NCBI RefSeq assembly: GCF_003254275.1
Contig: NZ_QKZK01000001.1
Span: 168,940 to 232,939, forward strand
DNA from: Breznakibacter xylanolyticus
GTDB taxonomy: Bacteria > Bacteroidota > Bacteroidia > Bacteroidales > Marinilabiliaceae
Direction: 5' to 3'
DNA: 64,000 bases
The position numbers and the translations under genes are program-made. The stretch's first letter is position 1, and each line of letters starts with the position of its first letter. The notes under the pieces are model-generated. The model searched no databases. It was given only the letters and a program-made list of their open reading frames with translations, and was not told the origin of the DNA. This document shows, one piece after another, positions 29,017 through 49,345 of this stretch.

Positions 29017-29676
29017 TTATTCAATAAGTTTCATCACCGCGTTGACTGTGTTTTCAGCTCCGGCGGCGACTTGCGTGATGGAGGCGTCGAGCATGTAGCA
29101 GGGCGAAGACACGATTTTGTTTTCTTTGTCCACCACAGTTTCAGCATGTGACGTGTTGGTGTGCGTGGCGCCGAAGGCTTTGATGGCATTGGCCGTTTCG
29201 GCATCGTTACCGATGGTCAGTTGCCCTTTGCCCAATATTGCGGCAATGAGCACCGGGCTAATGCACAAGGCGCCAATGGGTTTATGGTGTTTGTGAAAAC
29301 CCAGGATGGCTTTTTTTACATCTTCATCAATGGAGCATTGATCTCCATCAAAAGCAAATGAGCAAAGGTTTTTTGCTACACCGTACCCACCCGGCAGAAT
29401 GACCGCATCAAAAAGTGTGGGGTTCAATAAGTGGAGAGGGGTGATGTGCCCTCGGGCTATGCGAGCCGATTCGGTAAGAACATTACGCGATTCATCGGAG
29501 GTCTCACCCGATAGGTGGTTGACCACCTGAGCCTGCGCTTTGTCGGGTGCAAATAATTGGTAGGCAGCACCGGCTTTTTCAATGGCCCACATGGTGAAGA
29601 CGGCTTCGTGGATTTCGGCTCCATCGTAAACGCCGCAGCCCGAAAGAATGACGGCAATTTGTTTGCGTGTTGGCAT
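29017..29676 (-). CDS. elbB: ElbB family glyoxalase-like protein (DJ-1/PfpI superfamily)
   Basis: The 219-residue protein has the class I glutamine amidotransferase-like fold of ElbB: AVILSGCGVYDGAEIHEAV, then VILPGGYGVAKNL and the nucleophile elbow GALCISPVLIA with the reactive cysteine. Escherichia coli ElbB has glyoxalase III-type activity and an earlier link to isoprenoid biosynthesis that is uncertain. It is a single gene ending at a terminator shared with GH43. Confidence 0.9.
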   Translation of the reverse strand: MPTRKQIAVILSGCGVYDGAEIHEAVFTMWAIEKAGAAYQLFAPDKAQAQVVNHLSGETSDESRNVLTESARIARGHITPLHLLNPTLFDAVILPGGYGVAKNLCSFAFDGDQCSIDEDVKKAILGFHKHHKPIGALCISPVLIAAILGKGQLTIGNDAETANAIKAFGATHTNTSHAETVVDKENKIVSSPCYMLDASITQVAAGAENTVNAVMKLIE

Positions 29677-29812: not shown

Positions 29813-31657
29813 TCAAATTTGGGTTGCATTCAATTCTAGAATCATGACCGATTTTGGGGCGATAATGATGTTGTCGAGTGGAACGTATTTTTGACCTGTC
29901 ATCAGATCTGTTGCGGCTTCTATTGTTGATAGTTGTGATGAATAGAGGGTTGGGGCGAGTCGTTTTTTTTCGGTCGGGTGGTTGTTGACCACCACCATAA
30001 TGGTTTGTTTGGGGTGCGTTCTGAAATAGACATAAAGGTCATTTTGAGGAATGAAATGGATGAATTTTCCTGTTTGGAGAGCCGGACATTGACGGCGAAT
30101 GTCGATGGTTTTTTTGATGTGACGCCAAGCATGCCATTGTTCAGGAGTCAGTCCATGACCAATTGAATGACTAAGAGAGTCGAGAGCTGTAAACGCCGGA
30201 AAATCTTTACGTCCGTCGGCTTTACCTTTCATCAGGTTGCCATCTGTGAGGTATTCGCTGCCGTATAGTAACATGGGGATTCCCCGGGTTGTGAACACCA
30301 GGTCGGTCATCATCAAAAATTCATTTAAGTGTAGATCGGCATTGGTGTAAGCGCGATTCGTTTTATGATTGTCGGCAAAAACGATGTTGTGAACGGGGCG
30401 ATGATACCCCAAATCCCATGACATGGTTTCGTACAGACGCATGAGGCCTTCGAGCGGGGGTGTATGGTTTGAAAAGCAATGGGCGAGGGTGTGTTGCAAA
30501 GGGTAATCGCTCAGGCGTGCTGATCGGGCCAGGGTGAGTCGGTTTATTTCATGTGTTTGTATGAGTGGAGAGGGGGATGGGGTGTCTAAAATCAGGGTGA
30601 AACCCGGTATTTCGCTTGATAGCGTTGCATGCAGACTTTGAGTGAGATCGGCTGCGATGGTAAATGAATTGTCAATTTTTAGGGCATCGGCATCTGTTGT
30701 GATCATCCACCATAAGCAGCATTGCGTCAGATAACTCTTTAAATCGGGGTGGTTGGTGTTGAGGGCAATGATGTCCAGTTCGGGCCATGTGGCAAAGGCC
30801 GAGAGTGAGTCTTCGGCCGTGGCATAGGGGTCGAAATGCACGGGTTGTGGCTTTGGCTCGATATAAGCATATTGATCGGGCATGAGCCATTGCTTGACCG
30901 GAGGCGACAGTGCCAGAGGGTTTTGTTTGCCCATTTGGTTAAGCGGAAAGGTCAGGATGGTTTTAATCTGGCGTTCATGTAGTTTTTGAATCCATTTTTT
31001 GAGTTCATCCATGGAGCCCAATCGGTTGTCGGGGGCATAAAAATTGGTAACCCCCATTCGCTCGTAGGAATTGACAAACTGGTTGGTTGCCAAAATAGAG
31101 GTGAGTTCGATGGTGGTGATGCCCAGGGTATCAAAGTAATCGGTAAGGCGAATGAGGCCGGCGAAGTCACCACCATGTATGCCCGAAGGGTTGAGTGGAT
31201 CAGCTCTCTCTAAGATTTCCGACGGGTTATCATTTTTGGGATTGGCGTTGTAAATACGATCCGGGAAAATCTGATATATGATGTCGCTGTTGTCGATGGG
31301 TGCTGCGTGGTGAGTGGGTTTGGCCAGCAGTTGAAGAGAGGCGGATGTGGTTTCTTTTTTGTTGTTGGTAAAGATGAGTTTTACTGACCCGGGTTTGGCC
31401 GAAGGGAGTATTTCGAGGTCGACAAACAGGTAGTTGTCATGGTCGGCTGCGCGGGTTGTCAGCACGCGTACGTCGCCGGATGAGGTGTGTACCTGATTGT
31501 TCGATAGATTTTTACCGCTTATGAGCAGCGTGAGTTTGGGGTTGTTTAATCCAACCCACCAAGTGGAGGGTTGGATGCTTTTCACGGTCGGCACAGCAGC
31601 CCATAAGGTGCTACTTAGGACTCCCAGTATGCCGATGATGACCATTGCGCGTGCCAT
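29813..31657 (-). CDS. GH13-like protein with lost catalytic residues, exported
   Basis: The 614-residue protein has a signal peptide and the same domain order as the SusA-like GH13 at 35.7-37.5 kb: an N-terminal sandwich starting WWVGLNNPKL, then the (beta/alpha)8 barrel (YQIFPDR, GIHGGDFAGL) and a C-terminal beta domain (YVYFRTHPKQ). By my alignment Asp and His of region I are Thr236 and Gln241, the region II Arg is Lys327 with Asp329 kept, the acid/base Glu is Asp358, and the region IV His-Asp is His431-Lys432. It is unlikely to be a normal hydrolase. The frame is intact throughout, so a binding or regulatory role is more likely than decay. Confidence 0.82.
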   Translation of the reverse strand: MARAMVIIGILGVLSSTLWAAVPTVKSIQPSTWWVGLNNPKLTLLISGKNLSNNQVHTSSGDVRVLTTRAADHDNYLFVDLEILPSAKPGSVKLIFTNNKKETTSASLQLLAKPTHHAAPIDNSDIIYQIFPDRIYNANPKNDNPSEILERADPLNPSGIHGGDFAGLIRLTDYFDTLGITTIELTSILATNQFVNSYERMGVTNFYAPDNRLGSMDELKKWIQKLHERQIKTILTFPLNQMGKQNPLALSPPVKQWLMPDQYAYIEPKPQPVHFDPYATAEDSLSAFATWPELDIIALNTNHPDLKSYLTQCCLWWMITTDADALKIDNSFTIAADLTQSLHATLSSEIPGFTLILDTPSPSPLIQTHEINRLTLARSARLSDYPLQHTLAHCFSNHTPPLEGLMRLYETMSWDLGYHRPVHNIVFADNHKTNRAYTNADLHLNEFLMMTDLVFTTRGIPMLLYGSEYLTDGNLMKGKADGRKDFPAFTALDSLSHSIGHGLTPEQWHAWRHIKKTIDIRRQCPALQTGKFIHFIPQNDLYVYFRTHPKQTIMVVVNNHPTEKKRLAPTLYSSQLSTIEAATDLMTGQKYVPLDNIIIAPKSVMILELNATQI

Positions 31658-31749: not shown

Positions 31750-32772
31750 TTAAAAAACAAAGTTGAGCGAAGCATTGATGTTCCAGCCGCGCATTTGTTT
31801 GTTGTAGTTGAACGGGATAAAATAACCGGCTTTGGTGTCGATGAGCAGGTATCGGTTTTTGAACAGTTCCAAACCGACTGATGGGGTGACAAAAAAGATA
31901 TCTTCGGTAGTTACTTCTCCGGTCCCCAGCATGTAGCCGATGGTATATCCCGAGTAAAGGTTGAAGAAGCGGCGATGACCGCGTCCCAAATACCGGGAGT
32001 AGAAATCCTGTCCAAAACCGAAGACGAACAATTCCGTCAGTGTTGAATCGTTTTGCTGGGGGGCTGTGCTGTTGTAAGCGCCCAGGGTGATGAAGCTTTT
32101 TCCACGGGTGAACATGTATTTCAGGAAATATCCATCATAGTGAGCGGCCGATAACCCTTGGGTGGGGGTGTTGATGGTCAGGTAGGAGTATTCAGCCCCG
32201 GGCATGTTGATGAATGAGACCCGGGTTTTATCGGGCGTGGTGGTCTCGTCGGTGACAAATATTTTGACGTTGTAAAGATTATCTGTGTTTTGGTAAGTGA
32301 TGAGGTTTCTTTTGAGGTTGAAGATTTTTTCTTCAATGTTTTTCATCTCTCGCCACAGTTCCATGTATTGATCCGACTTGTTGTCAATTTCCTTAAGCAA
32401 AGCGGCGTATGAATCCTTTTTTTCGTTGAGATAATTGAGTTCGAGGTGAATGCGGTCAACGGCATCTTGCTGGTTCTCTTTGGTGAGTTCCAGCGAGGCG
32501 ACGTGTCCCAGTTGTGGCAGCATCTGTTCGAGCTGTTTCCATTGGTTCTCCGATAGCGGAAAGTGGTAATTGGTCTGCCCGGTATATTCTTTTTGAAATT
32601 CGAGGTTGATGTTATTGGATGTCAGGAATTGGTTTAGTTGGATGCGAGCCTCTGCCATCGAGGGGGAAATGATGTTGATGGATGCATTGGTCGAGATGTA
32701 TGTTTCTTGTGGTTGCGCTGTGATGAATTGTATGGCTGTGGTAAGAATCAGGATGGTGAGTAGTTGCTTCAT
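31750..32772 (-). CDS. Exported protein with DUF4349-like N-terminal region and beta-rich C-terminus
   Basis: The 340-residue protein has a signal peptide (ending QFITAQ), a region about 40-170 that resembles DUF4349 (a strand pair, then a coiled coil with DRIHLELNYLNEKKDSY), and a C-terminal half of alternating hydrophobic strands ending SLNFVF, like a small outer-membrane barrel. It lies in the glucan region between GH13-like genes on the same strand, 92 bases upstream of the degenerate GH13. The DUF4349 likeness is judged by eye and could be wrong; function unknown. Confidence 0.55.
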   Translation of the reverse strand: MKQLLTILILTTAIQFITAQPQETYISTNASINIISPSMAEARIQLNQFLTSNNINLEFQKEYTGQTNYHFPLSENQWKQLEQMLPQLGHVASLELTKENQQDAVDRIHLELNYLNEKKDSYAALLKEIDNKSDQYMELWREMKNIEEKIFNLKRNLITYQNTDNLYNVKIFVTDETTTPDKTRVSFINMPGAEYSYLTINTPTQGLSAAHYDGYFLKYMFTRGKSFITLGAYNSTAPQQNDSTLTELFVFGFGQDFYSRYLGRGHRRFFNLYSGYTIGYMLGTGEVTTEDIFFVTPSVGLELFKNRYLLIDTKAGYFIPFNYNKQMRGWNINASLNFVF

Positions 32773-32892: not shown

Positions 32893-33819
32893 TTACTTGT
32901 CAAGTATTTTATTGACTTCTTCGGTCGTGAGTCCGGTGTCATTGGCAATTTCATCGGGTGTGATTCCTTTAGCCGCCAGGCGTTTTGCCAGGTGTGCGAT
33001 GGCCGAGAGGGCTTTTTCTTTCTCTTCCCTTTCTTTTTCTTTCTCCTTCAAGGCCTCCTCTTTTTCCTTGAGTGCCTGTTCCAGCTTCTTTTCTTTCTCG
33101 GCAAAGCGTTGTTCAATTTCTTCTTCGGCCAGGGCTTGTTCCAAAAAGTTTTCGTCCCGGAGCGGAATGGAGAGGTAATCGGCAATGTCGCGGAATTCCT
33201 GGGGCACCTCTTTGATGTCGAGCACGTAACCGTCGGCCGTTTTCCATTGTTGGCTAAAGAGGCTCAGAAACTGCTCCAAGCGGCTGCGGCGTTCCTGCCC
33301 CAGACGAGCCACCTGAAGAATGTGCGAGCGATGGGTGAGCAGCCTCATGAAGAGGCTTTGCATGGCCACCGGCTCACCGGTCACCGCGTCGACGGCTGTG
33401 TTGTTGATGGTCACCGCCACATGGGGCACGTCCTCGAGCGGGTAACCCAACAGGTAGATGGTGATGATGGGGTACGCGACCTTCACATCGATGCCCTGAC
33501 TGTTCTTTTCGGTGTCGGACTTCATGTAGTTGGCTCCCAGGTAACGGCGGAAACGTCGTACTTCGGCTTCGGACTTGGACTTTTGCAGTTCGATGAGCAC
33601 TTTTTGCCGGGTGCCGTCGGCCAGGCGAATCACCGCTTTGAAATCGACCCGAAACAAGCGCAGCATCCGACTCTCATCAACAAACACATGCTTCTGGTTT
33701 TCCATGTGCAGCTCTTCAATCTCTTCTTCAATGATGAGGCTGATGATTTTGATGGCCAACTTGTTGTTTTCCATCAGGTATTTGAAGGCGGTGTCGTAAA
33801 GGGGATTGGCAATCTTCAT
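32893..33819 (-). CDS. Rpn family PD-(D/E)XK nuclease-like protein
   Basis: The 308-residue protein starts DTAFKYLMENNKLAIKIIS, the standard opening of the Rpn/PDDEXK_2 family, and carries a nuclease core with Asp in RVDFKAVIRL and the variant ELQK for the ExK motif. A lysine/glutamate-rich coiled coil of repeated EKE units (about residues 230-275) leads to a short helical C-terminus that resembles a helix-turn-helix (GITPDEIANDTGLTTEEV). Rpn proteins promote recombination and are often spread by horizontal transfer, yet this one is embedded in the glucan region with no transposase or flanking repeats. Confidence 0.85.
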   Translation of the reverse strand: MKIANPLYDTAFKYLMENNKLAIKIISLIIEEEIEELHMENQKHVFVDESRMLRLFRVDFKAVIRLADGTRQKVLIELQKSKSEAEVRRFRRYLGANYMKSDTEKNSQGIDVKVAYPIITIYLLGYPLEDVPHVAVTINNTAVDAVTGEPVAMQSLFMRLLTHRSHILQVARLGQERRSRLEQFLSLFSQQWKTADGYVLDIKEVPQEFRDIADYLSIPLRDENFLEQALAEEEIEQRFAEKEKKLEQALKEKEEALKEKEKEREEKEKALSAIAHLAKRLAAKGITPDEIANDTGLTTEEVNKILDK

Positions 33820-33940: not shown

Positions 33941-35320
33941 TTATCGGCGATAAACATGGTACCCCCATGCCGGCAACGTGATGGCATCATTGCCAAGGCG
34001 ACAGGTTTGACCGCTAAAGTATTCTTCAAATTCACCTTTGAGCGGGTGTTGAAGTTTAAACTGTACCGCTTTATCGCTGAGATTGATGATGCTGACCACG
34101 GTGTTGGTTCCCTTTTGACGGGTGAATGCCAATATGGCTTCGGGATGAGACGTGGCAACAAGGGTGGTTTTGCCGCCAAAGGCAGCATTGGCCAGTGCCG
34201 GATTTTCTTTCTTCAAACGGGTGAGTTGCTTAAAAAAGTCGGCCATGGCCAGATTGTCCCAGTGGATGGTGTCTTTTTCAAAAAAACGAAGTCGTTTACT
34301 CAGCCCGGCTTCCTGGCCGCTATAAATGAGTGGCAATCCCGGGGCGGTGAAGGTCAACAGGGTGGCTGCTTTCACGGCATCCCCCAGTCGTTCGTATTCC
34401 GAGCCGTGCCACGAATTTTCATCGTGGTTGGTGGTAAATAACATGGGCATGCTTCCGGTCGCGTGCAGTGAGTCAGTTTTCAACAACCATCGTTCAAAAG
34501 CCGTCGCGGTGCTTTTGCCGTTGGTCAATCCGTTGAAAAGGTCTTTGAGCGACCATGCGTAATTGGCATTGAAGGCACTGTCGAGCAAAAAGCGCTGGTC
34601 TTCGTTCTCGGCCAGCATAAAGATGGGCTTCACGGCTTGCAGTTCTCGTCGGGCATGGTTCCAAAAGGAGGCGGGCACCAGTCCGGCCACGTCGCAACGA
34701 AATCCGTCCACGTTGGCTTCTTTCACCCAAAACAGCATGGCATCGGTCATGGCACGGTGCACGGCCGGTTGTGTGTAATCGAGTCCCACCACATCTGTCC
34801 AATGATCAATGGTGGTGCCGTTGTCAAACACATAGGCTTCGATGTTGCCTTGGCTGTTTTTCAGATACCATTGGGGATGTTCCACCACCCAGGGGTTGTC
34901 CCAGGCCGTGTGGTTGGCCACCCAGTCGAGAATTACTTTCATGCCCAGGTCGTGTGCCCGGTTCACCACCCGTTTAAGGTCGTCGAGGGTGCCCAGTTCG
35001 GGGTTCACGCCTTTGTAGTCTTTCACCGAGTAGTAACTGCCCAGTCCTTCTTTACGGTTTTCGATGCCAATGGGATGCACCGGCATCAGCCACAAAATGT
35101 CCACGCCCATGTTGCGCAGGCGGGGCAGATGGGGTTCAAAGGCGGCCAGTGTTCCTTGGGGCGTGTATTGGCGAAGGTTCACTTCGTAAATGACGCTGTT
35201 GCGAGCCCAGTCGGGGGTTGCCACCTTCGGGATGAGCGGGGTGTCGGGTGTTTTGTGCCGGCAAGCACCCAGGAAGGTTGCCACCAAAAGGCTTATCGTG
35301 ATGAGTTGGCGTGTGTTCAT
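33941..35320 (-). CDS. GH13 alpha-amylase family lipoprotein
   Basis: The 459-residue protein has a lipoprotein signal with Cys20 (ATFLGAC) and an intact catalytic set: Asp132 and His137 (LDWVANH), Arg208 and Asp210 nucleophile (GFRCD), Glu238 acid/base (MLAENED), and His299-Asp300 (TTNHDENS). There is no extra N-terminal sandwich, so it is a compact amylase of the kind that trims maltodextrins, probably periplasmic. It lies downstream of the SusA-like gene but beyond the repeat/terminator array at 35.35-35.5 kb, so it may have its own transcript. Confidence 0.9.
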   Translation of the reverse strand: MNTRQLITISLLVATFLGACRHKTPDTPLIPKVATPDWARNSVIYEVNLRQYTPQGTLAAFEPHLPRLRNMGVDILWLMPVHPIGIENRKEGLGSYYSVKDYKGVNPELGTLDDLKRVVNRAHDLGMKVILDWVANHTAWDNPWVVEHPQWYLKNSQGNIEAYVFDNGTTIDHWTDVVGLDYTQPAVHRAMTDAMLFWVKEANVDGFRCDVAGLVPASFWNHARRELQAVKPIFMLAENEDQRFLLDSAFNANYAWSLKDLFNGLTNGKSTATAFERWLLKTDSLHATGSMPMLFTTNHDENSWHGSEYERLGDAVKAATLLTFTAPGLPLIYSGQEAGLSKRLRFFEKDTIHWDNLAMADFFKQLTRLKKENPALANAAFGGKTTLVATSHPEAILAFTRQKGTNTVVSIINLSDKAVQFKLQHPLKGEFEEYFSGQTCRLGNDAITLPAWGYHVYRR

Positions 35321-35669: not shown

Positions 35670-37532
35670 TTATGGCATCAACTCAATGATGGTGGCACTT
35701 TTGGCAGGTACCCGAATGGTTTTCAGGTCGCTGACGGCCTTGCCCGAAATGACATCCTTGCCGGTTTTAAAGTCCTTGAGGATTTCGACAAAACGACTGG
35801 TGTCAATGGTTTTGGCATCTTCCTCGGCATTGTTGAGAATCACCATCACGGCCTGATGACCCAGCGTTCTGAAGTACACGTACACTTCGTCGGCCGGGAT
35901 GAAATGGGTGAGCTTTCCCTTGTGCAGCACGGGGTTGCCTTTTCGGTAGTTGAACACTTTGGCCATGTAATCCCAGGCTTCGTTCTGTTTGTGGTTGCGT
36001 CCTTTGGGGGTGAAGGCATTGAGGGTGTCGCCGGGCCATCCGCCGGGAAAGTCTTCGCGCAAAAAGCTGTGACCATCAAAGCCGTTGCCGGTCATCAAAA
36101 TCTCCGATCCGTAATAGAGCTGCGGCGTGCCCCGCGTGGTAGCTAAAAAGGCCATGGCCATTTTAAACTTCCGCACATCGTTCTTCAGGAAATACATCAT
36201 GCGGCCAATGTCGTGGTTTTCGGCAAAGGTGACCAGATTGTCGGGGTTGGGGTAAAGATGGTCGTCGGCCAGAATGTCGTACAGGCGCACCAATCCATCG
36301 TCCCAGGTTTCCTTCTCGTTGAAGGCTCGGCGCATGGCTTCCATCAGCGGGAAGTCGAAGATGCTGGGCAATTCCGAGTTGTAGCCGTCGCGGTTGGGGA
36401 AATCTTTTTGCCAATAAGCCAGTTTTGAGGGCGATGAGATCCACGATTCGCCCACAATGTTAAAGTTGGGATACTCACGGCGCACACGCAGGTTCCACTC
36501 GCGCATGGCTTCTTTGTCGGGGTAGGGATACGTGTCCTGACGAATGCCCTGCAGTCCGGCATATTCGACCCACCAAATGCTGTTCTGAATCATGTAATTG
36601 GCCAACAGCGGGTTTTGCAAGTTGAGGTCGGGCATCGAGTTATCGAACCATCCCCGGGTGGCCACGGCCAGATCGTGCTGCGACACGTGCGGATCGGAGA
36701 CCGTGGAGAGGCGATAGTTCGAACGGGTAAAGCCGTTCCATTGGTTGATCCAGTCGGCTGCCGGTAGGTCATTCATCCACCAGTGGCCGGTGCCGCAATG
36801 GTTAAACACCATGTCCATGATGACTTTGATGCCTTTTTGGCGGGCGGCATCTACCAATTGTTTGAAATCGTCGTTGGTTCCCAGTCGGGCATCGATGCGG
36901 TAAAAGTCGGTGATGGCATAGCCGTGGTACGACGACTGTGGCATGTTGTTCTCCTGCACGGGGTTGATCCAAATGGCTGTCATGCCCAAATCGCGTATGT
37001 AGTCCAGATGGTCGCTGATGCCTTTGAGGTCACCGCCATGGCGTCCGTAAGGTTCCTTGCGGTTCATTTGTTCAATCATGCCGGGCATGTTGTCGTTGGC
37101 CGGATTGCCGTTGGCAAAACGGTCGGGCATTATCAGGTAAATGGCGTCGCTGCTGCTAAAGCCCTGGCGCATGGCCGAGCCTTCCTGGCGGGGCAACAGG
37201 TCGTAAAGACGCGTGGCCACGGTTTTCTTGCCCGAGGTGAACCGGATGGGCATTTGCCCGGGTTGTGCCGACGGGGCAATCACCACATCTAAAAACAAGT
37301 AGTTGGGGTTGCCGGTTTTGAGCGTGTGCTTGAGTTCTACACCCGGATAATTGATGCTGACATTGCAGGCCGCAATGTTAGGACCATACACCATGATTTG
37401 CAGGTTGGGATTGGCCATGCCCACCCACCAATTGAGGGGTTCAACGCGGGTGATGGCATTTTTTTGTGCCGATGACCAAAATCCTGTAAAAAGCATCATG
37501 ATGGTGCTGATAATGATGAGTGATCTTTTCAT
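35670..37532 (-). CDS. GH13 neopullulanase/cyclomaltodextrinase-like enzyme (SusA-like)
   Basis: The 620-residue protein has a signal peptide (ending WSSAQ), an N-terminal cyclomaltodextrinase-type sandwich (WWVGMANPNL) and a complete GH13 barrel: Asp240 and His245 (VIMDMVFNH), Arg331 and Asp333 nucleophile (GIRQDTYPYP), Glu362 acid/base (IVGESW) and His440-Asp441 (FAENHD). Bacteroides SusA is a periplasmic neopullulanase of this architecture. It is the last gene of the MFS-pgmB-GH65 unit. The degenerate homologue at 29.8 kb shares its full domain plan. Confidence 0.92.
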   Translation of the reverse strand: MKRSLIIISTIMMLFTGFWSSAQKNAITRVEPLNWWVGMANPNLQIMVYGPNIAACNVSINYPGVELKHTLKTGNPNYLFLDVVIAPSAQPGQMPIRFTSGKKTVATRLYDLLPRQEGSAMRQGFSSSDAIYLIMPDRFANGNPANDNMPGMIEQMNRKEPYGRHGGDLKGISDHLDYIRDLGMTAIWINPVQENNMPQSSYHGYAITDFYRIDARLGTNDDFKQLVDAARQKGIKVIMDMVFNHCGTGHWWMNDLPAADWINQWNGFTRSNYRLSTVSDPHVSQHDLAVATRGWFDNSMPDLNLQNPLLANYMIQNSIWWVEYAGLQGIRQDTYPYPDKEAMREWNLRVRREYPNFNIVGESWISSPSKLAYWQKDFPNRDGYNSELPSIFDFPLMEAMRRAFNEKETWDDGLVRLYDILADDHLYPNPDNLVTFAENHDIGRMMYFLKNDVRKFKMAMAFLATTRGTPQLYYGSEILMTGNGFDGHSFLREDFPGGWPGDTLNAFTPKGRNHKQNEAWDYMAKVFNYRKGNPVLHKGKLTHFIPADEVYVYFRTLGHQAVMVILNNAEEDAKTIDTSRFVEILKDFKTGKDVISGKAVSDLKTIRVPAKSATIIELMP

Positions 37533-37675: not shown

Positions 37676-39982
37676 TTAACGTGTGATGGTGGTCGACTCG
37701 CCTGCTTTGGCCGTTACCGGTTTTCCATACAGGTAAAGGGACACATCGCCCGAGCCGTGCGCGATGATTTCCACCTGGGTGTGCGACACGCGTATCTCAA
37801 TGTCGTTGCCCATAAAGGTGATGCGGAAGGCATATTCCTGCCATTGCTGGGGGATGATGGGGTTGAGGTGCAGCTGTTGGTTGTACACGCGTTTGCCGCC
37901 AAACCCTTCCACCACCGACATCCAGGTTCCGGCCATGCTGGTGATGTGCAATCCCTCGTGGGCTTCGTGGTTGTAGTCGTCCAGGTCGAGGCGCGAGGTG
38001 CGCAGGTACATTTCGTAAGCCTTGTCGATGTTGCCGATTTTGGCCGCTAAAATGGCATGCACGCATGGCGACAGCGACGACTCATGCACGGTACGTGGTT
38101 CGTAAAAGTTGAAGTTGCGGCGAATGGTCTCCGTGTCGAACTCTTCTTCGAAGACGTAGATGCCTTGCAGTGTGTCGGCCTGCTTGATGAAGCACGAGCG
38201 CAGAATGCGATCCCACGACCAGTGCTGGTTGATGGGGCGTTGTGCCGGGTCGAGGTCGGCGGCCAAAATCTGTTCTTTGTCCATGTAGCCATCCTGTTGC
38301 ATAAACACGTTCAGTTGTTCGTTGAACGGGAAGTGCATGTTGGCGATGATGTGGTTCCATCGTTCGGTTTCTTTTTCATCGAACGAAGTTTTGGCCACGA
38401 TGTCAGCATAGCGGGCAGGGGCATCTTTTTTGACGATGGAGAGTGCCTCTTGTGCGTATTTGAGGCACCACACCGCCATTTTGTTGGTGTACCAGTTGTT
38501 ATTAATGTTGTTTTCGTATTCGTTAGGGCCGGTCACGCCCAACATCACGTATTTATTGCGTTCGTGACTCCAGGTGATGCGCTGGCTCCAAAAGCGGGCA
38601 ATGCCCATGAGCACTTCGGCGCCGTATTCGGCCAAATAGCCATTGTCGCCGGTGTGGCGCAGGTAGTTGTGAATGGCAAAGGCGATGGCACCGTTTCGGT
38701 GAATCTCTTCGAAGGTAATCTCCCACTCGTTGTGGCACTCTTCGCCATTGATGGTCACCATGGGGTAGAGAGCCGCTCCGTTGGTGAATCCCAGTTTTTG
38801 GGCATTCTCAATGGCTTTTTGAAGATGTTTGTATCGATACACCAATAAATTACGGGTTACCTCGGCCGGTGCGGTGGAGATGAAAAAGGGAATGCAATAG
38901 GCTTCGGTGTCCCAGTAGGTGGTGCCACCATATTTTTCGCCGGTAAACCCTTTGGGCCCCACATTTAGGCGGGCATCTTCGCCGGTGTATGTTTGGTTGA
39001 GTTGAAAGATGTTAAAGCGGATGCCTTGCTGGGCTTCCACGTCTCCTTTAATTCGGATGTCGCTGTGGGTCCATTTATCGGCCCATTTGGCTTTGTGTTC
39101 GGCCAGCATCGTGTCGAAGCCTTTGTGCATGGCCGCCTGAGCGCTTTGTGTGGCAGCGTCCACCAAGTGGTCGGGCGCATGGTTCAGACTGCTGCTTACG
39201 GCCACGTACTTAACGATGGTGGCTACTTGTGCCTTGTTTACGGGAATGGTAACGCTGTTGCCGGCCTTGGTAGCTGTTTGTATCATGTCGGCTTTGGCAG
39301 TGACGTTCGCTGAGTCAATTTGCAGGGCGTAACGCATGGCATATCCCACTCTGAAATCGAGCTTTTTTGTTTGCGACAGCAGGGTGGCTTCGCCGGCTTT
39401 GGCGTTGCTCCATAGGATGTTCCAGAATTTTTCGTCGTAATTGGAGTCTTCGTTTTCCACATCGCCATCCAAATAGGGCACAAAGGTGATTTTCCCTGAG
39501 AAGTTGAGAGGGGTCACCGAGTAGCGGATGACGCCGTTTTCGGTGTCGGCCATGCTCAGAAAGCGGATGGCATTTACGCGCAGTTGTTTGCCCGAAGGCA
39601 GCGTGGCATCAAAGGATCGGGAGAGGGTTCCCTCCTTCATGTTGAGCACCCGTTTGAAGTGTGTGGTGGTGGCTGTGGCCAGATCGAGCATCTCACCGTC
39701 GGCCAGCACATCCAAACCAATCCAGTTGGGCGAATTGAGCACTTTGGCGAAGTACTCGGGATACCCGTTTTTCCACCATCCCACGCGTGTTTTGTCGGGG
39801 TAATAGATGCCGGCCACGTAGTTGCCTTGCAGGGTTTTGCCGCTGTATTGCTCTTCAAAGTTGGCGCGCTGCCCCATTTTACCGTTGCCCAGGCTGAAGA
39901 TGCTTTCAGATGAACGGTGCATGTCTGGGTTGAATCCTTCTTCGATGATGCACCATTCGTCGGGGATTAAATATTTTTTCAT
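37676..39982 (-). CDS. GH65 disaccharide phosphorylase, probably maltose phosphorylase
   Basis: The 768-residue cytoplasmic protein has the GH65 layout: N-terminal super-sandwich, helical linker and (alpha/alpha)6 barrel. WDTEAYCIPFF (about 357-367) and VTGPNEYENN with the likely acid Glu488 match maltose phosphorylases, as does the length. The enzyme would split maltose with phosphate into glucose and beta-glucose-1-phosphate, which the adjacent pgmB enzyme needs. Kojibiose or trehalose phosphorylase is possible but less likely beside maltodextrin genes. No signal peptide is present. Confidence 0.9.
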   Translation of the reverse strand: MKKYLIPDEWCIIEEGFNPDMHRSSESIFSLGNGKMGQRANFEEQYSGKTLQGNYVAGIYYPDKTRVGWWKNGYPEYFAKVLNSPNWIGLDVLADGEMLDLATATTTHFKRVLNMKEGTLSRSFDATLPSGKQLRVNAIRFLSMADTENGVIRYSVTPLNFSGKITFVPYLDGDVENEDSNYDEKFWNILWSNAKAGEATLLSQTKKLDFRVGYAMRYALQIDSANVTAKADMIQTATKAGNSVTIPVNKAQVATIVKYVAVSSSLNHAPDHLVDAATQSAQAAMHKGFDTMLAEHKAKWADKWTHSDIRIKGDVEAQQGIRFNIFQLNQTYTGEDARLNVGPKGFTGEKYGGTTYWDTEAYCIPFFISTAPAEVTRNLLVYRYKHLQKAIENAQKLGFTNGAALYPMVTINGEECHNEWEITFEEIHRNGAIAFAIHNYLRHTGDNGYLAEYGAEVLMGIARFWSQRITWSHERNKYVMLGVTGPNEYENNINNNWYTNKMAVWCLKYAQEALSIVKKDAPARYADIVAKTSFDEKETERWNHIIANMHFPFNEQLNVFMQQDGYMDKEQILAADLDPAQRPINQHWSWDRILRSCFIKQADTLQGIYVFEEEFDTETIRRNFNFYEPRTVHESSLSPCVHAILAAKIGNIDKAYEMYLRTSRLDLDDYNHEAHEGLHITSMAGTWMSVVEGFGGKRVYNQQLHLNPIIPQQWQEYAFRITFMGNDIEIRVSHTQVEIIAHGSGDVSLYLYGKPVTAKAGESTTITR

Positions 39983-40021: not shown

Positions 40022-40684
40022 TCAGGTTGTTTGGCTGAATGATTTGCGCAGAAGCGCAACGTTCATTTGGTGAAGGCCATCCACCACCAGGTTGGCTTTT
40101 GCCAACACCAGGGGTGAGCCAATGCCCACGCATTTCATGCCGCCGGCCAAAGCAGCTTCCACGCCGGCTTCGGCATCTTCAAACACCACGCAGTTGGCCG
40201 GTTTCACGCCCAATGCCTCGGCTCCTTTGAGGAACACTTCGGGATCGGGTTTGGCTTTGGAGGTACTGTTGCCGTCGATGATGGCATCGAAATATGGCGT
40301 CAGACCCACCCGTTCCAATATGGTAGGGGCGTTTTTACTGGCCGAGCCCAGTGCGGTTTGAATGCCTGCAGCCCGCAATTCGGTCAGAAAGTCTTTGGCT
40401 CCCGGCAGCACTTCGTCGGCCTGCATGCGGGTGATGTATTCCACATATCGGTCGTTTTTGCGGGTGGCCAGTTGTTGTTTTTTCTCGTCATCAAAGGTCA
40501 GTCCGCCAATTTCGAGCAGGATGTCGAGCGAGGCCATGCGGCTCACCCCTTTGAGGCGTTCGTTATCGGTTTCGGTAAAGTCGAATCCCAGCTCGTTGGC
40601 CAGTTCTTTCCAGGCAATATAGTGATATTTAGCTGTGTCGACAATGACTCCGTCGAGGTCGAATAAGCAAGCTTGAATGGTCAT
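40022..40684 (-). CDS. pgmB: Beta-phosphoglucomutase
   Basis: The start at 40684 gives MTIQACLFDLDGVIVDT and 220 residues; an ATG at 40717 abuts the MFS stop but adds a basic stretch foreign to the family. Asp9 and Asp11 are the HAD nucleophile and acid/base, LKGVSRMASLDILLE is the cap-domain specificity region, and GSASKNAP and VVFEDAEAGVEAA supply motifs II-IV. The enzyme converts beta-glucose-1-phosphate to glucose-6-phosphate, completing the GH65 pathway. Confidence 0.94.
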   Translation of the reverse strand: MTIQACLFDLDGVIVDTAKYHYIAWKELANELGFDFTETDNERLKGVSRMASLDILLEIGGLTFDDEKKQQLATRKNDRYVEYITRMQADEVLPGAKDFLTELRAAGIQTALGSASKNAPTILERVGLTPYFDAIIDGNSTSKAKPDPEVFLKGAEALGVKPANCVVFEDAEAGVEAALAGGMKCVGIGSPLVLAKANLVVDGLHQMNVALLRKSFSQTT

Positions 40685-40717
40685 TGGTTTCCTTTTAAGC
40701 AGTCTGTGAATAATCAA

Positions 40718-42049
40718 TTAGTGTGACTTTGCATGAATGTCATCGACAAAGTAAACTGCGATGGCGCCCAGCAACATCGACACGCCGGCCACTATCAGGA
40801 TGTAGATGGCTTGGCCGTCAAAAAAAGTTTTCAGAATGGTGCCGCCCAGCAATCCACTGATGATTTGCGGGCCGGCGATGGTGAAGTTGAAGATCCCCAT
40901 GTAGATGCCCATTTTTTTTGCAGGCAGAGCGCTCGACAGGATGGCAAACGGCATGGAGAGGATGGCCGCCCAAGCAATGCCGATGCCAATCATTGACACG
41001 ATGAGATGATTGGGGTTCGTCAAAAAATACATCGACACAAATCCTAAGCATCCGGCCAATAACGCCAACGCATAAACCGTTTTGCGTCCCCATTGTTTGG
41101 CCAGCCAGGGCATGGCGATGGAAAAGAGCGCTGCGAACAGGCTATATGCGCCAAAGATGATGCCCACCCAGTTGCCCGCTTCGTTGTATTGGGCCGAGCC
41201 GGCATCGCCCACGGGGGTGTGCCAAAAATGCTGAGCCACGGCCGGCGTGGTGTACACCCACATCAGGTACAGGGCAAACCATGCAAAGAATTGCACCACG
41301 GCCAGTTGTACCATGGTTTTGGGCATGGATCGAAGGGTGACCCAAAAGCTTTGCTTTTCTTGTTGTTCGGCTTCACTGATGTTTTTGTACTCGTTGAACT
41401 CGGCAGGGGGGTATTCTTTGGTTTTGAATACGGTTACCAATACGCTGATAATTAGGATTGCACCGCCAATGTAAAACGACCAGATGACCGACTGCGGCAC
41501 TTGTCCGTCAGGGGCTTCGTTACTCACGCCCATCATGTTGGTGAGCACATACGGCAATATCGACCCGATGACGGCACCGGCATTGATCAGAAAGCTTTGG
41601 ATGGAATATCCCACGTTGCGTTGCTCATCGGGCAGCATGTCGGCCACCAATGCCCTAAAGGGTTGAAAGGTGACGTTGAACGAGCCGTCCATGAGGGCGA
41701 AGATGATGGCGCCAAAAAGCACCGGAGCCATCCATGCCACCACCATTGAGGCGTTGGGCATCATGAACATGGCCAGCATCGATACCAATGCCCCACCCAG
41801 AATGTAAGGCAAACGTCTGCCCAAGCGGTTCCAGGTACGGTCGCTCACGTGACCCACGATGGGTTGCACGATGAGCCCCATGATGGGGGCGGCCAGCCAA
41901 AACAGTGGCAGGTGGTGCAAGTCGGCTCCCAGATTGGAAAGGATGCGGCTGGCGTTGGCGTTTTGAAGGGCAAAGCCAAATTGAACCCCCAGGAATCCGA
42001 AGCTGATGTTCCAGATTTGCCAAAACGAAAGTTTGGGTAACTGTCTCAT
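40718..42049 (-). CDS. MFS sugar transporter (SLC45/GPH-like), probably maltose importer
   Basis: The 443-residue protein has about 12 membrane helices and the family motif VGHVSDRTWNRLGRRLPYI (about residues 64-82), typical of glycoside-cation symporters and SLC45-like sugar/proton symporters. It heads the unit with pgmB, GH65 and GH13, so maltose or a short maltodextrin is the expected substrate across the inner membrane. Upstream lie a possible -7 box and two LacI-type operator sites. Confidence 0.9.
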   Translation of the reverse strand: MRQLPKLSFWQIWNISFGFLGVQFGFALQNANASRILSNLGADLHHLPLFWLAAPIMGLIVQPIVGHVSDRTWNRLGRRLPYILGGALVSMLAMFMMPNASMVVAWMAPVLFGAIIFALMDGSFNVTFQPFRALVADMLPDEQRNVGYSIQSFLINAGAVIGSILPYVLTNMMGVSNEAPDGQVPQSVIWSFYIGGAILIISVLVTVFKTKEYPPAEFNEYKNISEAEQQEKQSFWVTLRSMPKTMVQLAVVQFFAWFALYLMWVYTTPAVAQHFWHTPVGDAGSAQYNEAGNWVGIIFGAYSLFAALFSIAMPWLAKQWGRKTVYALALLAGCLGFVSMYFLTNPNHLIVSMIGIGIAWAAILSMPFAILSSALPAKKMGIYMGIFNFTIAGPQIISGLLGGTILKTFFDGQAIYILIVAGVSMLLGAIAVYFVDDIHAKSH

Positions 42050-42836: not shown

Positions 42837-43853
42837 TTATATGGTGGTTGATTCGCGCACAATGAGTTCGGGTGTCAGCACCCGGGTGTGAAAGGCTTCG
42901 GCCAGGTCGGGGTTGCTGATGCGCGTGAGGAGCATGCGCGTGGATTCCTGTCCGATTTCATACCCTTTTTGACCCACGGTTGAGAGGGAGGGGGAGGAAA
43001 TGGTGGCATTGGGGCCGTCACCAAAGCCAATGACTTTAATTTGTGTGGGAATCTTGTACCCGTTTTTCATGAGTAGCTGCATGGCTGCGATGGCTGTTGA
43101 ATCGTTCACGGCAAAAATGCCATCGATGTGCGGAGCCAACGACAGTATGGCGTCGGCTTGTTTTGTCACATCATCCCGTGTGTCGCAGCGCATGAAAAGT
43201 GATGGGTTGATGGCGAGTTCGTTTTGCTCGTGGGCCAATTTGTACCCATCAAGACGCTGTTTGCCAATGAGCATGTGCAGTGGAGCTCCCAGCATGAGAA
43301 TTTGTTTGCATCCCAGGCTAATGAGGTGTTGGGTGGCGATTCGCGCTCCTTCCCGGTCATCTACAATCACTCGATCCGATTCAATTTCTTCGCACACCCG
43401 GTCGAAAAAAACGATGGGTGTGTTGTTTTCAACAATGCGCTGAAATGGTTCGGAGTTGCGGGTGGTTTTGCTTACCGATATCAGGATGCCATCGACCTGG
43501 CTGTCGAGTAACGCCTGTATGTTAATGGCTTCGCGGGCGTCGTTTTCGTTGCTTTGGCACATCATTACTTTGTACCCTGCAGCATAGGCTACATCTTCAA
43601 TGCCACTGATGACCGATGAAAAAAAGTGGTGCACGATTTCGGGAATAATCACCCCAATGGTAAAGGTTTTGGAGCTTCGCAGGCTCAATGCCAGGGCATT
43701 GGGGCGGTATTTTACCTTTTCGGCAAAGGTCTGAACCAGTTTTTTGGTCTCGGGGCTGATGTCGGGATGGTTCTTGAGCGCCCGACTGACGGTCGATGGC
43801 GATATTTCGAGAATGCGAGCAATGTCTTTTATGGTGATTTGGTGGGTTTTCAT
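42837..43853 (-). CDS. LacI family transcriptional regulator of the alpha-glucan locus
   Basis: The 338-residue protein has the LacI helix-turn-helix (TIKDIARILEISPSTVSRAL), the hinge helix with YRPNALALSLRS, and a periplasmic-binding-protein-like sensor domain (GVIIPEI, DGILISVS, DRVIVDDREGA, GIFAVNDSTAIAAM). It sits between the maltose operon and the susC operon, both of which have CAAACGTTTG sites in their upstream regions. The ligand is probably maltose, a phosphosugar or a maltodextrin. The leader carries element copy B. Confidence 0.93.
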   Translation of the reverse strand: MKTHQITIKDIARILEISPSTVSRALKNHPDISPETKKLVQTFAEKVKYRPNALALSLRSSKTFTIGVIIPEIVHHFFSSVISGIEDVAYAAGYKVMMCQSNENDAREAINIQALLDSQVDGILISVSKTTRNSEPFQRIVENNTPIVFFDRVCEEIESDRVIVDDREGARIATQHLISLGCKQILMLGAPLHMLIGKQRLDGYKLAHEQNELAINPSLFMRCDTRDDVTKQADAILSLAPHIDGIFAVNDSTAIAAMQLLMKNGYKIPTQIKVIGFGDGPNATISSPSLSTVGQKGYEIGQESTRMLLTRISNPDLAEAFHTRVLTPELIVRESTTI

Positions 43854-44698: not shown

Positions 44699-47600
44699 AT
44701 GAGAAAATCGTCAGATTTGCTGAAAGCGCTGTTTCTCATGCTGGGTTTAGTCGTTGTGTTGACCGCACAAGCTCAGGTGAAAACGGTGACCGGCAGGGTG
44801 TCAGATGCCGCCAATGGTGACCCCATGCCCGGTGTAACGGTGGTGGTGAAAGGCACCACCAATGGAACTATTACCACTCCTGATGGAACTTATTCCATGC
44901 AGGTGGCTGATTCAGATGTTTTATTGTTTTCGTTTATAGGTTTTAAAAATCAGGAAGTGAATGTTGCCGGCCAATCGGTCATCAATATCCAGCTTAAATC
45001 CGATAATATCGGCATGGAAGAAGTGGTGGTCATCGGCTACGGGGTTTCGAAGAAAAAGGATCTCACCGGTTCGGTGCAAACCATTTCGGCCAAGGACTTT
45101 AATCAGGGAGCCATTACTTCGCCACAGCAGTTGATGAACGGTAAGGTTGCCGGTGTGCAAATTACCGATGGTGGCGGCGCACCGGGCAGTAAGTCTACCA
45201 TTCGTGTGCGCGGTGGTTCTTCGCTTAAGGCCAGCAACGACCCGCTCATCATTGTTGACGGCGTGCCAATGGATAACAGTGATGTGTCAGGGATGTCGAA
45301 CCCACTGAGTGTGGTGAATCCCAACGATATTGAAACCTTTACCGTGTTGAAAGACGCCTCGGCCACCGCCATTTATGGTAGCCGAGCCTCTAACGGAGTT
45401 ATCCTCATTACCACTAAAAAAGGAAAAGGAACCGATATTCATGTCGATTACACGGGAAATGTGTCGGTGAATACGCCCACCAAAATGGTGGATGTGCTCG
45501 ATGCCGGTGAATATAGTGAGCTTCTGAAGCAAAAGTTTCCTGCCAATGCTGGTTTAATGGGGAGTGCCTCTACCGATTGGCAAAAGGAGATTTACAAAAC
45601 CACCACCAGCACCGACCATTCTATTGCCATTGCCGGTAACGTGAAAAAGGTGATGCCGTTCCGCGCCTCAGTGGGCTACAATAATTCAAACGGGATTCTT
45701 GACCAGTCGCAAATGCAGCGCACCACCGGCTCTTTGAACCTGAATCCTTCGTTTTTTAAAGATCATTTACGCATCAATGCATCTATGAAGGGAATGTTGT
45801 TGAAAAATAACTTCTCAAACACCGATGCCATTGGCGATGCCATCAGCATGGATCCCACGCAGGCTGTGACAGGCGATGCTTATGAGCCTTTTGGCGGTTA
45901 TTTTGCCTGGGCCGACTCGCAAGGCAATCCCAACGCCAATGCGCCCATGAACCCTCGCGCCCGCATTGACCAAAAACGTAACCGTTCGACGGTGAACCGC
46001 TTTATCGGGAATTTTCAGGCCGACTATAAATTCCACTTCCTGCCCGAGTTGCGTGCCAACCTGAATGTGGGTACTGATGTGTCGACCGGCGAAGATGACG
46101 GCGGCGTGCAAAACGCACTTGGCGCAGCCTGGGATGTGCCTGCTTATGCTCGTGGCGGCGCTTACAACACTTATTTGCAAAAGAAAAAGAACGAGTTGCT
46201 CGACTTCTATTTGCAATACACCAAAGATTTGCCCGATTACAAATCGCGTTTCGATGTGATGGGCGGTTACTCATGGCAACATTTTTGGAAACAGGAAGAG
46301 ACACAGTCGTTCTACAACGATCCGCTTGATCCAGATGCCGATCACGTGCGTGATCCTTACAAAATGACCAAATCGGAGAACTATTTGGTGTCGTTCTTCG
46401 GGCGTGCCAACTATGTGTATGACGATCGCTACTACGTGACATTTACTTTGCGTAACGATGGATCTTCGCGATTTTCCGATGAAAACCGTTGGGGCTTGTT
46501 CCCATCTTTGGCTCTGGCCTGGAACGTGAAAGGTGAAAATTTCCTGACAGATAACTCCACCGTGTCAAACATGAAGCTTCGTTTGGGGTACGGTGTGACC
46601 GGTCAGCAAGATATTGGCAACGATTACGGCTACTTTGGTGTGTACACCGCCGGTGAAACCACGGCTGCATACGTTTATTACAAAGAAGTCAACGGGTCTT
46701 ATCAGCGCGTGTTGGTGAATACTCTTCGTCCTGAAGGTTACGATGCCAACTTAAAATGGGAAGAAACGGTGACTTACAATGCCGGGATTGATTATGGGTT
46801 CTTTAATGACCGTTTGTATGGTGCTTTGGATGTGTATTTGCGCAAAACCAACGATTTGCTTAACGAAATTCCTGTGCCTGCCGGAGCTAACCTTGAAAAC
46901 GTGTTGACCACCAACGTGGGTAACCTCGAAAACAAAGGTGTGGAATTTTCGGTGAATGGCGTGCTGATAAAATCAACCGACCTGACCTGGGAGCTGGGCG
47001 CCAACGTGACGTTTAATGAGAATGAAATCACCAAGTTGACCCGTGTGGATGACCTCAATTACGTGGGGGTTGCCAATGGAGATATTTCGGGTGGTACCGG
47101 CAATATGATCAAGATTCACCAGGTGGGACAGCCAGTGGGCTCGTTCTTTGTGTACGAGCAGGTGTATGGACAGGATGGTCGCCCCATCGAGGGTGTGTAT
47201 GTCGACCGAGATGTAGATGGTGAAATCACCACTGCTGATATGTATGTGGCCGGCAATCCTTCTCCCAAGGTGATGTTGGGCATCAACACCTCGCTCAATT
47301 ACAAAAACTGGGACTTTAGCCTCTCGGGACGTGCCAACCTGGGCATGAAGGTTTACAATAACATTGCTTCCAATGCCGGGTATTTTAACCGCATGCAAAC
47401 CAGTGGACAGTATTTGGGCAACCTTAATAGTGATGTGTTCAATACCGGATTCTTCACACCTCAGTATTTCTCTGATTATTATGTGAAGAATGCCTCGTTT
47501 TTCCGCCTCGACAACGTGACTTTGGGTTATCGATTTAAGGATTTGATGAGCAGCAAGATGAACATGCGGGTGTATGCCACCGTCAACAACGTGTTTGTGC

Positions 47601-47704
47601 TGACTGATTATGATGGCATCGATCCCGAAGTTTCCGATGGCATCGACCGGAATATCTATCCCCGTCCACGCACCTTCTTGTTGGGTGTAAGTGTTTCATT
47701 CTAA
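44699..47704 (+). CDS. susC: SusC-like TonB-dependent outer-membrane transporter
   Basis: The 1001-residue protein has a signal peptide (ending LTAQAQ), a carboxypeptidase-regulatory-like domain (about 28-105: GRVSDAANGDPMPGVTVVV), the TonB-contact motif EEVVVIGYG, a plug domain (LIIVDGVPMDNS, VLKDASATAIYGSRASNGVI, about 180-235) and a 22-strand barrel that ends LLGVSVSF. SusC proteins import oligosaccharides bound by the SusD lid. The gene order C-D-E-amylase and the regulator identify maltodextrin as the probable substrate. Confidence 0.96.
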   Translation: MRKSSDLLKALFLMLGLVVVLTAQAQVKTVTGRVSDAANGDPMPGVTVVVKGTTNGTITTPDGTYSMQVADSDVLLFSFIGFKNQEVNVAGQSVINIQLKSDNIGMEEVVVIGYGVSKKKDLTGSVQTISAKDFNQGAITSPQQLMNGKVAGVQITDGGGAPGSKSTIRVRGGSSLKASNDPLIIVDGVPMDNSDVSGMSNPLSVVNPNDIETFTVLKDASATAIYGSRASNGVILITTKKGKGTDIHVDYTGNVSVNTPTKMVDVLDAGEYSELLKQKFPANAGLMGSASTDWQKEIYKTTTSTDHSIAIAGNVKKVMPFRASVGYNNSNGILDQSQMQRTTGSLNLNPSFFKDHLRINASMKGMLLKNNFSNTDAIGDAISMDPTQAVTGDAYEPFGGYFAWADSQGNPNANAPMNPRARIDQKRNRSTVNRFIGNFQADYKFHFLPELRANLNVGTDVSTGEDDGGVQNALGAAWDVPAYARGGAYNTYLQKKKNELLDFYLQYTKDLPDYKSRFDVMGGYSWQHFWKQEETQSFYNDPLDPDADHVRDPYKMTKSENYLVSFFGRANYVYDDRYYVTFTLRNDGSSRFSDENRWGLFPSLALAWNVKGENFLTDNSTVSNMKLRLGYGVTGQQDIGNDYGYFGVYTAGETTAAYVYYKEVNGSYQRVLVNTLRPEGYDANLKWEETVTYNAGIDYGFFNDRLYGALDVYLRKTNDLLNEIPVPAGANLENVLTTNVGNLENKGVEFSVNGVLIKSTDLTWELGANVTFNENEITKLTRVDDLNYVGVANGDISGGTGNMIKIHQVGQPVGSFFVYEQVYGQDGRPIEGVYVDRDVDGEITTADMYVAGNPSPKVMLGINTSLNYKNWDFSLSGRANLGMKVYNNIASNAGYFNRMQTSGQYLGNLNSDVFNTGFFTPQYFSDYYVKNASFFRLDNVTLGYRFKDLMSSKMNMRVYATVNNVFVLTDYDGIDPEVSDGIDRNIYPRPRTFLLGVSVSF

Positions 47705-47716
47705 AATTTTAATCAG

Positions 47717-49345
47717 ATGAAAAAATCAATCATACAATATTTTGGAGCCGCACTGCTTTCGGTGTCGTTGTTCAGCTCATGTGTCAATGACCTGGATGTG
47801 CTCCCCATCGATCCCAGCATGGATACTTCCGATAAAGTTTACGATTCGCAGGAAGCTTTATACCAGGGATTGACTAAGATTTATGCAGGATTTGCCGTGT
47901 CGGGACAAAAAGGTCCCAGTGGTAACGGTGACCTGGGTGGCTTTGACGAAGGGCACAGCCAGTACTGGCGTGGTTACTTTGTGTGCCAGGAATTGCCTAC
48001 CGACGAGTGTGTCAATGGTTGGGGTGACGGGACCTTGCCTACAGTGAGTCAAATGACCTGGACGTCCAGTCAGGAGCACATTCGCCAGTTTTACTATCGT
48101 GCATTGTATCAGGTGTCGTTGGTGAATGAGTTTATCCGTCAGGCCAAGAGCAATGCCAGTGCTGAGTGGACTGCCGTGCCCCAATATGTGGCCGAAGCGC
48201 GTTTCTTGCGTGCCCTGGCTTACTGGCACGCCCTCGACCTTTTTGGAAACGGAATTCCCTTTGTGACCGAAAATGATGCCATTGGCTCAACTTTACCCAA
48301 TCCTGCCGGTAAGGACGAACGCGGTCCTGAGTTGTTCAATTACATCGAGTCGGAATTGTTGGCCATTGTGGGCGATACCGATGATGATACTTATGTGTTG
48401 CTCGATCCCCGAAAAGGAATGGTTGGCCAGGCCGATAAAGCCGCTGCCTGGATGTTGCTGGCCAAGCTGTATCTAAACCATGGCGTTTATTTGGCGAAAG
48501 TAGATAATGCCTATTATACCAAGGCTCGCAATTACCTCAATAAGGTGATTAACGAAGGCGGTTATCGCCTTATTGACGCTACGGATGCCGTTGATGGGGA
48601 TGTGTACAATGTGTATGAGTATCTCTTTTTGGCCGACAATTATCGTTGCAACAGCGAGATCATCTACTCCATTAATTGTGATGGGTTGAATTCACAAACT
48701 TATGGTGCCACCACGTACATCATTAACGCTGCAGTGGGCGGCGAGATGAATAAGGCCGATTATGGGTGTGGTTCATGGGGTGGAAACAGAACGACTAAGG
48801 CTTTGGTGAACAAATTTGATAATGGAGACATTCGTGCTCTCTGGTTTACCAATGGCCAAAGTCTCGAAATCACCAAGCAGGATCAGTTTACACATGGTTA
48901 TGCGGTCGTGAAATTTAAGAACATGACCCGAGATGGAAAGCCTGGTGGCAATGCCACTTCTGAATTTGCCGATGTGGATGTACCGGTGTTTCGTTTAGCC
49001 GATGCCTATTTGATGGCTGCCGAGGTCGATTTGCGTTTGGAGGGTACCGTTTCATCGGCCAACCTCAACAATTTGAAAAAAATTACCGATCGTGCCGGCG
49101 TGACATTCCCGACCACTGTTGATCTCAATTACATCCTCGATGAGCGTGCCCGTGAGCTTTACTGGGAGTGCCACCGTCGCACCGATTTGATTCGTTTTGG
49201 GAAATTTACTTCTAGAGATTATGTGTGGCCGTTGAAAGGCGGTGATCTTAATGGAAAGGCTGTGGATAAAAAGTACAACCTGATGCCCATTCCGTCAACC
49301 GATGTGATGGCCAATACCAACCTGAAACAGAATACCGACTATTAA
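47717..49345 (+). CDS. susD: SusD/RagB-like nutrient-binding lipoprotein
   Basis: The 542-residue protein has a lipoprotein signal (SVSLFSSCVND) and the SusD helical scaffold: VAEARFLRALAYWHALDLFG, KAAAWMLLAKLYLNHGVYL, here about residues 245-265, RLADAYLMAAEVDLR and LDERARELYWECHRRTDLIRFG, each cited only in part. It forms the lid on the SusC barrel at the cell surface. It follows susC by 12 bases and precedes the SusE-like gene by 18 bases. Confidence 0.95.
   Translation: MKKSIIQYFGAALLSVSLFSSCVNDLDVLPIDPSMDTSDKVYDSQEALYQGLTKIYAGFAVSGQKGPSGNGDLGGFDEGHSQYWRGYFVCQELPTDECVNGWGDGTLPTVSQMTWTSSQEHIRQFYYRALYQVSLVNEFIRQAKSNASAEWTAVPQYVAEARFLRALAYWHALDLFGNGIPFVTENDAIGSTLPNPAGKDERGPELFNYIESELLAIVGDTDDDTYVLLDPRKGMVGQADKAAAWMLLAKLYLNHGVYLAKVDNAYYTKARNYLNKVINEGGYRLIDATDAVDGDVYNVYEYLFLADNYRCNSEIIYSINCDGLNSQTYGATTYIINAAVGGEMNKADYGCGSWGGNRTTKALVNKFDNGDIRALWFTNGQSLEITKQDQFTHGYAVVKFKNMTRDGKPGGNATSEFADVDVPVFRLADAYLMAAEVDLRLEGTVSSANLNNLKKITDRAGVTFPTTVDLNYILDERARELYWECHRRTDLIRFGKFTSRDYVWPLKGGDLNGKAVDKKYNLMPIPSTDVMANTNLKQNTDY

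Follow-up and report, generated by a model that had tools for sequence, protein, structure and literature searches.

GH13 is among the largest enzyme families. Amylases of this family with one altered residue in the catalytic triad exist and are active (PMC5347038). SusA of Bacteroides thetaiotaomicron is dimeric, and replacing its nucleophile (D331N) makes it inert yet leaves acarbose binding at one site (PMC11633381), so that this fold allows binding in the absence of catalysis. The paper that founded the GH13_46 subfamily chose intact-triad sequences only (PMC9781549); a clade of catalytically dead relatives would therefore have been left out of it. In the literature searched, we found no report on SusA in Marinilabiliaceae, no bacterial clade of GH13 pseudoenzymes and no dead clade within GH13_46.

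The window, a stretch of 64,000 nucleotides from Breznakibacter xylanolyticus, carries a starch cluster with two SusA-like genes, one of them predicted to be catalytically dead (hereafter the dead gene). The order on the minus strand is LacI-family regulator, transporter, beta-phosphoglucomutase, GH65, active SusA, small GH13, two inserted ORFs, dead gene and ElbB, and a divergent pair lies beyond the regulator:

44699..49345, plus strand, divergent SusC/SusD-type pair (1001 and 542 aa), named from sequence features
42837..43853, minus strand, LacI-family regulator of the operon
40718..42049, minus strand, MFS/GPH-type sugar transporter of the same operon
40022..40717, minus strand, beta-phosphoglucomutase in the same operon as GH65 (NCBIfam TIGR01990, above cut-off)
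37676..39982, minus strand, GH65 phosphorylase (768 aa)
35670..37532, minus strand, active SusA-like paralogue P0002 (620 aa), with DHRDEHD all present, 144 bp after the GH65 gene
33941..35320, minus strand, a further GH13 protein of shorter length, its N-terminus lipoprotein-like, located between the two SusA-like genes
32893-33819, minus strand, 308-aa ORF inserted in the starch cluster, by eye similar to Rpn/PD-(D/E)XK transposase-like nucleases, with an MKIANPLYDTAFKYLM start and a coiled C-terminus
31750..32772, minus strand, orphan secreted protein P0003 (340 aa), adjoining the dead gene, with a coiled coil and a possible outer-membrane-barrel C-terminus
29813..31657, minus strand, SusA-like (GH13_46-type) protein P0001, predicted to be catalytically dead (614 aa), with a predicted signal peptide, N-domain, (beta/alpha)8 barrel and C-domain
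29017..29676, minus strand, ElbB-like gene, directly downstream of the dead gene

The 308-aa ORF gave no Pfam match above the cut-off. P0003 matched no family and, among the 71 genomes of Marinilabiliaceae, had a full-length match in this genome only; it was considered as a conserved partner of P0001 and rejected, as elsewhere there was just a weak match of 41 residues in a single genome (G062).

The reading frame of P0001 runs from ATG to stop over 614 codons and starts with a signal-like hydrophobic stretch, and the protein is predicted from this signal peptide to be exported to the periplasm. Pfam matches above the cut-off cover all three domains: Cyc-maltodext_N (PF09087), Alpha-amylase (PF00128) and Cyc-maltodext_C (PF10438). 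An AlphaFold2 model built with 90 homologues reached a mean pLDDT of 92.5 and a pTM of 0.92. The nearest solved structures were SusA of B. thetaiotaomicron (9fyz) and the cyclomaltodextrinase of Flavobacterium sp. 92, both members of GH13_46, and the model superimposed on the former with a Z of 47.2 and an rmsd of 2.2 over 578 of 594 residues. The three Pfam domains and this Z score place P0001 in the GH13 fold family. Among the features of the subfamily, the N-domain is present (PF09087, E 8.6e-21; 587 residues of 1h3g aligned), as is the WW pair between regions V and II, formed by W316 and W317 and invariant in the dead clade. BLASTP aligned P0001 with its paralogue P0002 at 30% identity over 622 columns (E 4e-95). 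The first-pass annotation had described a full-length GH13 homologue with an intact 614-codon frame, an intact signal peptide and both beta domains kept, and this was borne out, the signal peptide as a signal-like N-terminus.

The losses in the active site are extensive. Where active relatives read D/H/R/D/E/H/D, P0001 has T236, Q241, K327, D329, D358, H431 and K432, reproducing the five replacements and the two kept residues (D329 and H431) that had been called by eye. These assignments agree across BLASTP, MAFFT (with 62 non-dead homologues) and phmmer to SusA 9fyz, and the frame is anchored by the invariant W316–W317 pair, the HGGD motif and E468; an alignment artefact was accordingly rejected. 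Region I reads TFPLNQ in place of DMVFNH and region IV NHK in place of NHD. The tryptophan corresponding to W188 of P0002 is replaced by E184, the H-G-Y of the –1 platform by E199-R200-M201 and the region V Asp by A298, and the GH13_46 region V motif MPDLN is thus IIALN in P0001; across the clade, the Asp of this motif is lost and the Asn is kept in 28 of 29 members. The published inclusion criterion for GH13_46 is an intact catalytic triad. In P0001, D329 is kept, the Glu has become D358 and the Asp K432, and none of the 29 clade members has the full set of nucleophile Asp, acid/base Glu and transition-state Asp. Across the clade, no other residues were seen to step into the Glu and Asp roles. 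As judged from the aligned residues, the loss spans most of the –1 sugar subsite. With the acid/base residue, both residues of region I and the sugar platform all missing, the normal GH13 mechanism of hydrolysis is very unlikely to operate, and P0001 is in all likelihood dead as a hydrolase.

To place P0001 among its relatives, we searched 71 Marinilabiliaceae genomes and found homologues in 62, with sequences read in 58. A scan of the genome contigs with the single sequence returned no relatives of P0001, and an alignment-based scan did find them. A dead copy was present in 29 of the 58 genomes with a readable homologue, and all 29 copies are without the Asp of region I and the Glu of region III; an active copy was also present in 25 of these genomes. 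The remaining 62 homologues from the 58 genomes read DHRDEHD, apart from one with DQRDEHD, and intermediates between the dead and the active residue sets were absent from this sample. Second copies in two genomes (G036 and G056) and partial matches in four others (G028, G042, G055 and G068) were left unclassified and are outside these counts. In the phylogeny, the dead copies group together as a single clade (SH-aLRT 100), with one state change and a long stem. The same loss fixed in 29 genomes as one clade exceeds what is expected by chance. The idea that the clade is an artefact of common active-site losses was rejected, as removing all active-site stretches from the alignment gave the same result.

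The DQRDEHD homologue (L140, in genome G031) is full length, has only the region I His changed and sits on a long branch; it is possibly an early step or an alignment effect. Outside Marinilabiliaceae, none of the best 27 homologues from other families of the order was dead, and neither was any of 51 other named records; of the weak matches, a part was read. Every homologue checked outside the family retains the Asp of region I and the Glu of region III. One of these, from a Prevotellaceae MAG (L103), reads DHRGEID, with the nucleophile Asp changed to Gly, the region IV His to Ile and the rest kept.

A decaying, useless duplicate is one reading of the dead gene, and some observations go in that direction. 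P0001 sits on the longest tip (1.37) as the fastest evolving and most divergent full-length member of the clade, with 8 of the 63 clade-conserved positions changed; many genomes lack the gene, and the frame is broken in one (L231 in G021), where the gene is split in two. The genes adjoining L231 on the same contig are split as well, which suggests a sequencing error. Against decay, the dN/dS of two close pairs of dead orthologues was 0.063 and 0.100, compared with 0.022 and 0.053 for the active copies in these two genome pairs, and purifying selection on the dead proteins is clear and somewhat weaker than on the active copies. The frame is intact in 28 of the 29 dead genes, though most share only 30–60% identity, and an alignment of 22 sequences has 45 invariant columns. 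When the P0001 frame was evolved neutrally by simulation, only 2 of 1,000 runs were stop-free at 20% amino-acid change, whereas P0001 differs by about 62% from its nearest relative. For the clade, decay is already contradicted, and we give it next to no chance; a lone pseudogene was likewise rejected on the 29-genome clade, the low dN/dS and the neutral simulation. P0001's own constraint may be weaker, given its long tip, its eight changed positions and its lower third-position G+C (0.53 vs. 0.71 for the active paralogue and 0.69 for GH65). The first-pass suggestion that hydrolysis was lost and that selection acts for something other than it (glucan binding, sensing or a scaffold as candidates) is strongly supported by the clade of 29 orthologues, the low dN/dS in close pairs, the intact three-domain fold and the lack of substitutes for the Glu and Asp.

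The positions of the former active site have evolved in two ways. In the dead clade, four positions changed and have since been fixed, with Q129 (29/29), an acidic residue at 184 (E/D, 28/29), a basic one at 200 (R/H/K, 29/29) and Thr or Ser at 236 (27/29), and charge is retained at 327 (K/R, 28/29) and 329 (D/E, 27/29). The His and Tyr of HGY, the region V Asp and the transition-state Asp are drifting. This suggests a pocket that has been rebuilt besides having decayed, and the switched-then-fixed positions would point to new salt bridges or a new ligand. A further alternative takes the rebuilding to be for another reaction, the newly fixed polar residues making P0001 a different enzyme; that new charged or polar residues have become fixed at several places in the pocket, without drift, is consistent with this, and GH13 can tolerate the loss of the transition-state Asp (BmaN1, PMC5347038). 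However, no single set of residues with catalytic geometry is kept (7 of the 29 have Ala, Ser or Thr at position 358 and two have Tyr or Cys at position 329), and BmaN1 retains the nucleophile and the acid/base residue, which the dead clade does not. We regard a new catalytic activity as very improbable.

The genomic position of the dead gene varies between genera. In 11 genomes of one genus group, it directly follows GH65 at a distance of 103–237 bp, and the active enzyme, if any, is elsewhere and, where placed in the tree, is of another lineage. Several other genera have an active SusA adjoining GH65, and in one genome (G029) GH65, the active and the dead gene are in tandem. The dead gene lies outside the starch operon except in genera g1, g6 and g9, and a link to maltodextrin is therefore not general. 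The gene is missing from about half of the genomes. In 14 of 28 neighborhoods (the window and 13 other genomes) it lies beside ElbB, and 16 of 28 have nearby a gene that we take to be DUF4294-like; this adjacency shows positional orthology, with no obvious functional partner.

The dead protein could be a noncatalytic partner subunit, forming mixed dimers or tetramers with active SusA and tuning its activity or localization, as plant ISA2 does as the noncatalytic partner of ISA1 (PMC12510319). Enzymes of GH13_46 are dimeric or form dimers of dimers, and the N-domain takes part in the contact (PMC9781549; PMC11633381); most dead-copy genomes also have an active copy, and the two genes occur in tandem in G029 and share a cluster in the window. 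Yet two genomes, G015 (100% complete) and G030 (95% complete), contain the dead gene and no active enzyme of GH13_46, and this speaks against an obligatory complex with SusA. The active enzyme of genus g6 comes from another lineage and lies far off in the genome, so there is no constant partner, and the lineage of the active enzyme varies between genera. We thus consider a partner subunit unlikely, and the proposal in the first-pass annotation of a scaffold for other Sus proteins is disfavored, as far as an obligate scaffold of active SusA is meant. A scaffold or receptor without a sugar ligand, acting on another periplasmic protein, would have its precedent in the rBAT and 4F2hc ectodomains (PMC8537225). 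The –1 subsite has largely disappeared, the stacking Tyr with it, which would fit such repurposing, as would the solitary location of the gene, next to ElbB or DUF4294-like genes, in most genera; its placement in an operon with GH65, PGM and the transporter in 11 genomes and in the window speaks against it, and we rate this reading as rather doubtful.

We favor P0001 as a selected, non-hydrolytic pseudoenzyme, a reading that we hold, as a whole, to be likely; the gene is probably put to another use and not decaying. That it is a pseudoenzyme is highly probable, and that its job is maltodextrin-related binding in the periplasm is a tentative proposal, somewhat short of an even chance. In this explanation, an exported GH13_46 protein of the SusA/cyclomaltodextrinase type would have a single origin, in the ancestor of Marinilabiliaceae or earlier; with the acid/base Glu, the Asp and His of region I and the greater part of the –1 sugar subsite lost, P0001 would have been retained since for a non-hydrolytic job. 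It may bind or act as a scaffold through the kept beta-domains and the rebuilt barrel pocket (Q129, E/D184, basic 200, Thr/Ser236, K/R327 and D/E329), would work beside the GH65 maltose system where the operon is common to both, and may dimerize like SusA. It may be that the former glucan cleft does not bind sugar at all, since the –1 aromatic platform (the Tyr of HGY) and the region V Asp drift freely. In a related variant, which we judge to be improbable, the rebuilt pocket would recognize a new ligand, and the protein, as a receptor or sensor in the periplasm, would have replaced SusA at its place in the maltose operon.

Annotation pipelines would label the proteins of the dead clade as alpha-amylase or cyclomaltodextrinase, and with such a conserved and selected clade the counts of starch enzymes in Marinilabiliaceae are too high. 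In the maltose operon of 11 genomes, the dead gene occupies the place of SusA, and the clade offers a bacterial system for deletion tests of the role of an amylase fold without catalysis.

Among the known systems, the rBAT and 4F2hc ectodomains (PMC8537225) resemble the dead clade in reusing the GH13 fold, there as a transporter subunit, but they are vertebrate proteins, membrane-anchored and covalently linked to transporters, and no anchor was seen in P0001. Plant ISA2 (PMC12510319) is similarly a conserved GH13 paralogue that lost catalysis; it works in a complex with ISA1, whereas some dead-copy genomes here lack an active GH13_46 partner. BmaN1 (PMC5347038) represents a group of GH13 proteins with a common altered triad, in which only the transition-state Asp is changed and activity is retained; the dead clade is without the acid/base residue, region I and the greater part of the –1 subsite. 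The closest are SusA and the cyclomaltodextrinases of GH13_46 (9fyz, 1h3g and 9dcq): the dead clade lacks their region I Asp and His, acid/base Glu, MPDLN and HGY and, in general, the transition-state Asp, but shares with them the three domains, the signal peptide, a near-full-length fold (Z 44–47), the WW pair, the HGGD motif and the NxNPxND stretch where the barrel begins.
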